Source of the DNA: an uncultured Pelagibacteraceae bacterium
GTDB taxonomy: Bacteria; Pseudomonadota; Alphaproteobacteria; Pelagibacterales; Pelagibacteraceae
NCBI GenBank assembly: GCA_902588585.1
Contig: CACIPQ010000001.1
Location: forward strand, 1 to 64,000
Length of the DNA stretch: 64,000 nucleotides
Direction of reading: 5' to 3'
In this document: positions 9,884 to 13,014 of the stretch, piece after piece
Layout: each line of letters opens with the position of its first letter
Position numbering within the stretch: the stretch's first letter is position 1
Position numbers and translations under genes: made by a program
The notes under the pieces: model-generated
Database searches by the model: none
What the model was told of the DNA's origin: nothing
What the model saw: the letters and a program-made list of their open reading frames with translations, nothing else

Positions 9884-9895
9884 ATTTGGTGCGGT
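9884..9895 (+). repeat. Distal direct repeat of the tRNA-Leu 3' end (att-like), ATTTGGTGCGGT
   Basis: Identical, same orientation, to 13003-13014 at the tRNA-Leu 3' end. Confidence 0.7.
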
Positions 9896-9917
9896 TTTAA
9901 TTTAAAAATCTTAATTT

Positions 9918-10676
9918 TTATTTAATTCTTTCGCAGTATTTTTCATAACCTCTTGCTTGGTTTTCGGTCAAACCCATGACTTTAAGAGCCTGAGATCTCG
10001 TTTCTTTACTTCCTAAATCAAATTCATAATCAACAATTGCATCTGTTAGATAACAGCTCTCTTTAAAATTTCCTGTTTGGTCTAATAAATCCTTAGTAGT
10101 CGCATATTCTCTTCTTGTATTTACAAAATATTTATTATCAATCAACGGACTTGATACAAATTGAAAAGTAGTCTGATTATATTTATATAACTTTCCGTCT
10201 ATCATTTTTTGAGTTTGTTCCTCAAATTTTTTCTCAATTTCTTCTTTTTCTTTTCTAGTTTTTTCCGCTACTTGTTTTGCCGTTTCTACTTCCTTTGTTT
10301 TTTGCTCAATCTGTTGTTTTAGCTGTTGATTTTCTGGATTGTTCTTAACATCTTCTTTTAATTGGACAATATTTCCCTCTAATTCACTTATATTACCTTC
10401 TAATTGTTTAATTCGATTATTTTTATTAATTATTTCCCTGTTCATATATTCGCTTTGTTGTTGATCAAACTTCGCCTCTAGAGGATGAGGTTTTTTAAAT
10501 AAATGGTAGGCATAAGCGGCTAAAATTAAAAATAACCCTAAAGCAAGTATACATAAAGCAAATACCTTGGCGTAACCCCAGGCACTCTTAGTTCTTTTAA
10601 ATCTAGCCTTTTCATCTATATATTGGTTTACAGCATCGAAGTTATGAGTGGTAGTTTCATAAATTTTATTTGCCAT
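9918..10676 (-). CDS. Membrane-anchored coiled-coil protein of unknown function
   Basis: 252 aa; one TM segment (VFALCILALGLFLILAAYAYHLF) then heptad-rich RIKQLEGNISELEGNIVQLKEDVK; start overlaps the upstream gene's stop. Confidence 0.75.
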   Translation of the reverse strand: MANKIYETTTHNFDAVNQYIDEKARFKRTKSAWGYAKVFALCILALGLFLILAAYAYHLFKKPHPLEAKFDQQQSEYMNREIINKNNRIKQLEGNISELEGNIVQLKEDVKNNPENQQLKQQIEQKTKEVETAKQVAEKTRKEKEEIEKKFEEQTQKMIDGKLYKYNQTTFQFVSSPLIDNKYFVNTRREYATTKDLLDQTGNFKESCYLTDAIVDYEFDLGSKETRSQALKVMGLTENQARGYEKYCERIK

Positions 10677-12469
10677 TATTTTTTCTTATCCTTGTCATCT
10701 CCAGGAGCCATGAATGGTCCTTTTTTCAATAATTCTTCATCGTCCGTTGGTAAAGGCACATAAACTATTTCTTTTTTTATTATTTCCTCTTTAACAGGAA
10801 CCTCTTTCTCTACATGAACAATTTTATCTTTATAAACGTATACTGGTTCTTTTACGATTTTTTCAACTTCAACTTCAACTTTTACCTCTTTAATAATTGG
10901 ATCTTTAAATCTTTTTATTCGACCATGAATATATCTTCTCATTGTAAAAAATAATTTTGAAAATCTCTCAGCAGCACCTCTCCAATTAGCTCTTTTATTC
11001 CTAATTTTATGTAATCTTGGATCTAATAAAACCAAACTAGCAAAAGCAAGCAGGGTACCAACCACAGAAATAACAAAGCTCAATACACCAAACCATAACC
11101 AGAAAGCTGCAACCAAAGCTCCTCTGGGGATGTCTGCATAAGGAGATGTTTGAATTGTGCTAGCTTTTAAATCACTTTTTCTTTTTAAAATTTTAATTTG
11201 TTTTTCTGCAGATGTAATTTGTTTGTCTAATATAGTATTATCAATTTTTTTATTATCATAAAAAAATGGAAAAATTTTCTGTAACCAATTCGGTTCTTGA
11301 ATTTCAATAACTTTTAAGTTCTCAAATTCTATAATTCTTTTTTCAACCTTTCTTATTTCTTCATCATAATTGATTTCAAACCAGTCTCTCAACCAAGTAG
11401 CAACTCTAAAAACTTGGTTGTCTGGTGCTAATTCATCTATTTTTCTAATATTTTCGTCTCGTTTTTCTTCAAGCTGATTAATTTTTTCATCTTTTTGTGA
11501 CTCATTTTCTGATTTTTTGATTTTTCTATCATTCAATTGTTTTAGTCTAGTTGCAACCTCCTCAAGTTCACTGTTAAGTTTTTTATTTGCATTTGCTGCA
11601 GTTTTTCGAATTAATTCAATTGATGCTGCATTATTCTGATTGCTGCTTCTTAACATCGAGTCGATTTGATTTTGTTTGGTTGTTTGTTCCTGGGTTTTTC
11701 TATCAATTATTTTGTTGTTTGCTTCGATCTGTTTATTAAAAGTGCTTTTTACCCATGCACCTTTTGAGTCTGATCTAAGTTGCGTGTTTGCTTTTGTAAG
11801 TTCTTCAATTTCTTTTCCTAGTGAATCTATTCTTCTTTGTAATTGATCTATAACCTCTTTATTACCGCTTGATTCTCTAAGTTGTTTAATTTGTTTTTCT
11901 GCTGATAAATTATTTTCGTCAATTTGGGATTGTATTTCCCTTCTTGTTGCTAATTCTTTTGAAATATCTTCATCTATTTCATCTGCTCTTTCATCAATTG
12001 ATAAGTTTTCAATCTCAGTTAAAATTGAGTGGTACTCAGTAATATAGTTAGATACGACTTTGGTTCTTTCCCTATTAATTCTCTCAAATCCAGTTACTAT
12101 TGTTTCAAAAGTAGATACATTTACTAATAATAATCCAATTATAAAAACAATTCTCCAAGATAACCTTGCTGAGTAATAAACTGCAGTTGCTAAAGGAATT
12201 TTTGTTAGCTCTACTATTGCAACAATCATAAATATTAATCCAATTGAAAAATCATTTAAGGTCATGCTTCCTAGAAAACTAAAGCCAGATACCAATTGGC
12301 TTGTACCCTGCTCAGTTTGAGTGCCTTTCATAATAATTAAACCAATTGTGAAACCTATAATTGCTACTGCAATTTCAATAGTCCAAGCCATTCTTAAAAG
12401 AAAAATTCCTTTTTTTCCTGTTTGGGATTGTGGAAAGAAATTATTGAAAATGTTATTTAGATTTGGCAT
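10676..12469 (-). CDS. Large polytopic membrane protein with long coiled coil and charged C-terminal tail, unknown function
   Basis: 597 aa; several N-terminal TM segments, ~280 aa coiled coil, another TM (FWLWFGVLSFVISVVGTLLAFASLVLL), tail VKVEVEVEKIVKEPVYVYKDKIVHVEKEVPVKEE. Confidence 0.75.
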   Translation of the reverse strand: MPNLNNIFNNFFPQSQTGKKGIFLLRMAWTIEIAVAIIGFTIGLIIMKGTQTEQGTSQLVSGFSFLGSMTLNDFSIGLIFMIVAIVELTKIPLATAVYYSARLSWRIVFIIGLLLVNVSTFETIVTGFERINRERTKVVSNYITEYHSILTEIENLSIDERADEIDEDISKELATRREIQSQIDENNLSAEKQIKQLRESSGNKEVIDQLQRRIDSLGKEIEELTKANTQLRSDSKGAWVKSTFNKQIEANNKIIDRKTQEQTTKQNQIDSMLRSSNQNNAASIELIRKTAANANKKLNSELEEVATRLKQLNDRKIKKSENESQKDEKINQLEEKRDENIRKIDELAPDNQVFRVATWLRDWFEINYDEEIRKVEKRIIEFENLKVIEIQEPNWLQKIFPFFYDNKKIDNTILDKQITSAEKQIKILKRKSDLKASTIQTSPYADIPRGALVAAFWLWFGVLSFVISVVGTLLAFASLVLLDPRLHKIRNKRANWRGAAERFSKLFFTMRRYIHGRIKRFKDPIIKEVKVEVEVEKIVKEPVYVYKDKIVHVEKEVPVKEEIIKKEIVYVPLPTDDEELLKKGPFMAPGDDKDKKK

Positions 12470-12935
12470 TCATTCTCTCCACTATTGTCTTTGTATATTT
12501 ATTAATCTTTGTAAATATATTGTCTAAAAATTTAAAAAATTTATCTGAGAAAGTTTTTTTAATATCAAAAATTTCTGCTACTTTTCTTATATCTCTTTCC
12601 TCTTCTTTGCTGACAATATGATCTACTTTGGCTAAACGATATAATACTGCAACAACAAATTCTAAAAAGTCAGGGTGTCTAAAGCCTAAAAATCGTTTAA
12701 GTTGCAATGCGTGATGTTCGATCGTGTTAGAATCTTTGCCAGCTTCGTCCAGAATTTTTAATAAAATTGGTTTTTGTCTAGGCTCATGTGGTACAATTTT
12801 TAAAATCTCCTCTTCTTCACGGATAGAAAAATGACCGTCGGCCACACAAAGTTTAGCTGAGAGTATCAAAACCCCAATCACAGTTATGGTTTGATCTGTT
12901 TCGTTTCTATATTTGTCCCAAAGATCTCCTGACAT
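12453..12935 (-). CDS. TerB-like (tellurite resistance / DjlA N-terminal-type) protein
   Basis: MSGDLWDKYRNETDQTITVIGVLILSAKLCVADGHFSIREEEEIL...LYRLAKVDHIVSKEEERDIRKVAEIF: two acidic TerB-like motifs; start at 12935 preferred over the longer ORF start. Confidence 0.65.
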   Translation of the reverse strand: MSGDLWDKYRNETDQTITVIGVLILSAKLCVADGHFSIREEEEILKIVPHEPRQKPILLKILDEAGKDSNTIEHHALQLKRFLGFRHPDFLEFVVAVLYRLAKVDHIVSKEEERDIRKVAEIFDIKKTFSDKFFKFLDNIFTKINKYTKTIVERMNAKSK

Positions 12936-13002
12936 TTTAATTATTAAACAGTAATTTTTGGAATAAAAGAAGGTAAAATTTAACAAGTAAAATCAGTAAA
13001 AT

Positions 13003-13014
13003 ATTTGGTGCGGT
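13003..13014 (+). repeat. Proximal direct repeat, overlapping the CCA/acceptor end of tRNA-Leu
   Basis: ATTTGGTGCGGT, identical to 9884-9895. Confidence 0.7.

Follow-up and report, generated by a model that had tools for sequence, protein, structure and literature searches.

Introduction

Additive flexible genomic islands (fGIs) are cassettes bounded by tRNA repeats, described in Ca. Actinomarinales (PMC7771536) and Ca. Methylopumilus (PMC10872708). Dehalococcoides islands at ssrA that lack an integration module have been described as possible cis-mobilizable elements, or CIMEs (PMC3146451). Tycheposons, as cited in PMC10872708, carry a tyrosine recombinase and span 4-200 kb.

The window analysed here is a stretch of 64,000 nucleotides from a Pelagibacteraceae contig; it holds a three-gene block (9884-13014) that the first-pass annotation had attributed to acquisition at tRNA-Leu(GAG). 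This block and its counterparts in relatives resemble additive fGIs in being small cassettes at tRNA genes that end in a direct repeat of the tRNA 3' part, and in having variable cargo and streamlined aquatic hosts. The SAR11 cassettes sit at tRNA-Leu(GAG) and tRNA-Cys, and whereas the published passages on fGIs treat repeats and cargo, here there are also bare sites, an absence of integrase and common arm-like end motifs. Like the Dehalococcoides CIMEs (PMC3146451), the cassettes are att-flanked, have no recombinase, target an RNA gene and vary in cargo; in Dehalococcoides, however, integrase-bearing islands with the same att sit in tandem, and none was found at the SAR11 site. They share with tycheposons a marine setting, a tRNA target and the carriage of cargo, but they contain no recombinase and are mostly under 5 kb. 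The likeness to phage satellites (PICI, PLE and PICMI; PMC11389934, PMC10803314) would lie in dependence on a helper and possible use of a phage integrase, yet no integrase, replication or packaging gene was seen in them, which separates them from PICI and PLE. The general kind, additive fGI or CIME-like island, is known, and the SAR11 cassettes are a variant of it. No account of such cassettes in SAR11 was found in the open-access literature, outside which most subscription papers lie.

Results

A short repeat of the tRNA-Leu(GAG) end borders three genes

Two copies of a 12-nt sequence, ATTTGGTGCGGT, stand in one orientation at 9884-9895 and 13003-13014, and exactly three genes, all on the minus strand, lie between them (Table 1). 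The coordinates of the first-pass annotation, which placed the copies at the tRNA-Leu CCA end and after the GATase stop, were confirmed, and the open reading frames bear out its statement that only three co-oriented genes intervene. The tRNA-side copy consists of the CCA end and six acceptor-stem bases (ACCGCACCA) of tRNA-Leu(GAG) plus 3 nt beyond the gene, while the far copy begins one base past the stop of the GATase gene.

Table 1. Features of the tRNA-Leu(GAG) locus in the window
Feature	Coordinates	Strand	Evidence
GATase (class I glutamine amidotransferase), outer flank	9089..9883	+	Pfam PF00117 4.7e-9
Putative far-border remnant of tRNA-Leu(GAG) 3' end, attR-like	9884..9895	+	exact 12-nt copy; minus strand reads ACCGCACCAAAT
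252-aa protein, third operon gene	9918..10676	-	no Pfam family above curated cut-off
597-aa protein, second operon gene	10676..12469	-	no Pfam or NCBIfam match
TerB-domain protein, 160 aa, first operon gene, closest to tRNA	12453..12935	-	PF05099 2.9e-8
tRNA-side 12-nt repeat copy, attL-like	13003..13014	+	CCA end of tRNA-Leu + 3 nt
tRNA-Leu(GAG), putative integration target	13006..13089	-	ARAGORN
nadA, conserved flank	13154..14143	+	PF02445 1.2e-114

When both strands of the 992,303-bp assembly were scanned, these were the only 2 copies of ATTTGGTGCGGT, and the reversed control pattern gave 0 matches in the same assembly. The annotation had held that a 12-mer scattered over many unrelated sites would speak against acquisition; with two copies per genome, that is not the situation here. 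An order-3 Markov model of the window predicts ATTTGGTGCGGT 2.6e-4 times per 3.1 kb of one strand and 0.16 times per whole genome on both strands; for any 12-mer from the tRNA 3' region the figure is 0.0024 per 3.1 kb. A chance match is unlikely. Neither of the window's other two tRNAs has a comparable 3'-end repeat. GC content was considered as a mark of foreign origin and does not distinguish the block (0.298 versus 0.316).

The locus thus has the tRNA 3'-end target and far-border direct repeat of an additive fGI, its 12-nt repeat being a weak one. Because only 9 of the 12 bases belong to the tRNA, the repeat by itself is suggestive rather than decisive, and relatives were therefore compared.

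For this comparison nadA served as the anchor for finding the orthologous site. It has an orthologue in 87 of 101 genomes and adjoins tRNA-Leu(GAG) in the genus loci that were fetched. The GATase orthologue lies ~290 nt from tRNA-Leu in one genome (G029), with a different small ORF between, and ~5.7 kb away in another (G018), with other genes between. No precise bare site was found for the window element itself, the GATase end of G029 being ~290 nt off. The 12-mer and its outer flank in the window (9875-9935, ATCTTAAATTTGGTGCGGT) are similar to tRNA-flanking sequence in these same two genomes (ATCTTAATTTTTGGTGCGGT). A deletion joining the GATase end to an old attR would fit this likeness, as a post hoc reading of a match that is partly the GATase stop region.

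Relatives carry elements with different cargo at the same tRNA

We scanned 397 family genomes for a second same-strand copy of the 23-nt tRNA-Leu(GAG) end. The end itself is present in 264 of the 397, and a second same-strand copy in nine; in G247 the second copy lies on another contig, which places this genome outside the resolved set. Nine elements at tRNA-Leu(GAG), G016 included, were resolved, with sizes of 0.6-5.1 kb and repeats of 22-39 nt, and all nine begin directly after CCA.

The G016 element carries its operon, 31% identical to that of the window, in the same order and orientation beside tRNA-Leu(GAG); 3,030 nt downstream stands a 22-nt repeat of the tRNA 3' end. From its first base, the outer flank of this element matches bare sites in G006 (111/120) and G012 (108/120). 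Further pairs of element and bare site match likewise (G026/G030, 105/120; G380/G032, 109/118; G371/G046, 90/115), and shuffled controls scored far lower. These alignments demonstrate, at the level of sequence, that insertion falls exactly at the tRNA 3' end: the tRNA is restored, and the far border receives a duplicate of its end.

Cargo includes an endonuclease-VII-type nuclease, a methyltransferase, a trypsin-like protease, a 2OG-Fe(II) oxygenase, a DEAD-box protein, MORN and uncharacterised proteins, an SF1 helicase of 1.5 kilo-residues, PrsW with a ligand-gated channel, and the TerB operon. Both properties expected of additive fGIs, different cargo and bare sites in relatives, are therefore present, and they are also what the annotation had proposed to look for. 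Its central claim, that the block was acquired at tRNA-Leu, gains support from G016, the bare sites and the other elements; indeed, the case for the window block rests mainly on these and less on its own 12 nt.

Two loci have further features of their own. At L042 (G018, 2552-3250), a 0.6-kb element, bounded by tRNA-Leu and a 31-nt repeat, holds a lone endonuclease-VII-like gene. Another left end comes directly after it, so that two elements appear to be in tandem, and beyond lies a NERD-UvrD helicase gene (PADLOC C3a187, 2.8e-57). At L123 (G371, 1255-4122), a predicted pentameric ligand-gated ion channel (PF02931/PF02932) is encoded together with PrsW, which is unusual for a streamlined marine bacterium.

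Most elements have common end motifs

In most elements the motif TG[CT]GCTC lies 53-95 nt in from the left end and some 90-105 nt ahead of the far core. It was found in G018, G330, G380, G269, G283, G285 and G371, though not at both ends in all; the 64-kb window contains it 6 times. A right-end box beside the core, GTGGGGAACRRGTAATRCMCCAAG, is present in only four of the 397 genomes (G016, G283, G285 and G371), always at tRNA-Leu(GAG), and G269 has this box with one additional base. The TG[CT]GCTC repeats may be arm-binding sites of an integrase. The window element and G026 have neither the TG[CT]GCTC motifs nor the right-end box. With its 12-nt repeat and no end motifs, the window copy looks like a decayed member of the group or another subtype.

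The elements lack an integrase of their own

No integrase was found among the ORFs of the window block or the nine elements, which leaves flanking att sites without an integrase, as in a CIME. Across the genus survey, a tyrosine recombinase of ~325 aa occurs about once per genome where found, never within an element, and was taken for the host Xer. G030 is the only genus genome with a second tyrosine recombinase, which was rejected as a helper: it adjoins tRNA-Met and is unrelated to the tRNA-Leu(GAG) site. At that locus (L124, 8667-12703) the integrase gene lies directly downstream of tRNA-Met and is followed by phage- or satellite-like genes.

A search of viral_contigs found no element end sequences. 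Within the limited sampling of the loci and viral_contigs, no integrase-bearing element with the same ends came to light, and no phage was seen to combine the tRNA-Leu(GAG) core with matching arms. Viral matches to the tRNA-Leu 3' end, variant cores included, were discarded as attP candidates, being complete tRNA genes of many-tRNA phages. A scan for tandem GTGCTC motifs gave 25 unrelated contigs; only L138 among them has an integrase close by, and it is a prophage of 58% GC where the motif stands in an unrelated context.

A second docking site bears on where an integrase might come from. In AG-919-M05 an element of 4 kb, located at tRNA-Cys(GCA) and bounded by a repeat of 45 nt, holds the operon and a nuclease-like gene, and SAG-MED05 has the same tRNA-Cys far repeat beside the operon. 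The tRNA-Cys 3' sequence is found at 86% in pelagiphage HTVC019P, and the core, with one mismatch, stands beside an integrase gene on a pelagiphage-like IMG/VR contig. Since phages use the tRNA-Cys end, in one pelagiphage as attP, supply of an integrase in trans is plausible.

Taking these observations together, we think it likely that 9884-13014 is a small element, now decayed, whose point of entry was the 3' end of tRNA-Leu(GAG): an att-flanked cassette without an integrase that was served by one in trans. The block might instead be what remains of a larger autonomous element, a prophage or tycheposon-like island that lost its integrase and most of its genes after entry. Such a remnant would suit the fact that an integrase is normal in integrative elements at tRNA 3' ends, the existence of pelagiphages with an integrase beside tRNA-derived sequences, and the visibly eroded state of the window copy. 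We nevertheless regard it as unlikely: the nine repeat-intact elements carry different cargo, keep both ends and are all without an integrase, and nine independent decays to one state are improbable. For the same reason, of the two options left by the annotation, that the block lost its integrase or never carried one, the second fits better and the first less well.

The operon is sporadic and was probably not exchanged by homology

Only 3 of 31 genus genomes have the operon, and about 6 of 147 in the family. The annotation would have been contradicted by synteny of the three genes in all close relatives; 28 of the 31 do not have them. The genus copies all adjoin nadA and tRNA-Leu and are 31-39% identical to those of the window, against ~91% for nadA, which points to separate acquisitions. 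Closer relatives, 50-53% identical, occur in other Pelagibacterales.

A swap of the operon between cells by homologous recombination, with nadA and tRNA-Leu as the anchor and a repeat that is incidental or left by an older insertion, would draw on the frequent recombination of SAR11 (PMC7542561), on the tRNA-Leu site being a variable junction, and on G013, where the operon stands at the tRNA-Leu(GAG) site with no far repeat. Against this, sharp bare sites starting from the base after CCA and repeats of 22-39 nt require site-specific insertion, and the operon also occurs within the 45-nt-repeat element at tRNA-Cys. Homologous exchange is accordingly quite improbable. In G013 (L060, 11435-13129) the third operon gene forms an in-frame fusion with glycosyltransferase-like sequence, so that the far border seems to have been lost through a rearrangement into a surface-polysaccharide island.

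That the window 12-mer is a coincidence and the operon an old cluster between GATase and tRNA-Leu is very improbable: the repeat is only 12 nt, the window has no end motifs and the operon lies away from tRNAs in several genomes, but the expectations given above are low, the copy sits exactly at the far border, and the G016 operon occupies the corresponding site in the same gene order, with a clean repeat of 22 nt.

Elsewhere (L088, L091 and L092), the operon lies downstream of tRNA-Thr(TGT) or tRNA-Cys 3' ends at a distance of up to about 2.5 kb; far repeats for it beside tRNA-Thr, tRNA-Leu(TAA) or tRNA-Cys were sought at these loci, and none rose above control. At L090 and L102 (about 8400-12400), tandem paralogues of ~195 aa with signal-peptide-like starts and the motif ADDIRDFEIEGISIGDS follow the TerB operon.

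The operon may encode a membrane-anchored complex

The TerB protein scores 34.4 bits against the Pfam TerB gathering cut-off of 24.4, placing it within the family, and its family profile matches TerB in the PDB (2jxu, E 0.0022). The 597-aa protein has predicted N-terminal TM segments with invariant ELTKIP / N-STFET residues, then a long predicted coiled coil and a predicted C-terminal TM segment with a K/E-rich tail; its structure model is of low confidence, and no relatives were found in viral_contigs. The 252-aa protein combines a short cytoplasmic N-terminus, one predicted TM helix and a coiled coil with a C-terminal alpha/beta domain that has two conserved cysteines; a fold search gave no PDB match at E<=0.001.

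PADLOC models gave only low-scoring coiled-coil matches to the operon, so that it does not register as a known anti-phage defence system; TerB matched an unrelated model (0.0014). Neither PADLOC nor NCBIfam, PDB or fold searches lent specific support to a role. The three proteins may form a membrane-anchored complex encoded by a stable operon, in which we would guess TerB to be the cytoplasmic partner; our guess for its role is envelope stress response or phage defence. A presumed likeness between the membrane proteins and MotA/ZorA-type motors was considered and is not claimed.

Discussion

The observations suggest the following course of insertion. Each element carries, as its recombination core, 22-45 nt copied from the tRNA 3' end, together with a few cargo genes and no recombinase; some also have short arm-like motifs repeated inside each end. 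The repeats and bare sites of relatives show integration by crossover in this common core, by which the tRNA stays intact and a duplicate of its end marks the far border. Given the tRNA 3' target, the core and the arm-like repeats, we infer that a tyrosine integrase acting in trans, from a phage or an autonomous element, would catalyse this crossover; an outside enzyme probably inserted these blocks. The window copy would then have lost most of its far core and its end motifs.

More tentatively, SAR11 may possess a family of non-autonomous tRNA cassettes of 0.6-5 kb, composed only of two att ends with arm-binding repeats and of cargo, and moved in trans by the integrase of a pelagiphage or another element. 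This wider proposal is possible rather than probable.

SAR11 bacteria are among the most abundant in the ocean and have streamlined genomes, and little is known of the ways in which they gain accessory genes. A docking site whose cores are defined, and which has bare sites and common ends, makes gene acquisition in SAR11 testable. It also offers a simple rule for recognizing recently acquired SAR11 cargo: the 3' end of a tRNA recurring within about 5 kb. If the proposal of a cassette family is true, a streamlined host would gain accessory genes via the recombination enzyme of a phage, in an integron-like manner, with tRNA genes as the docking sites.
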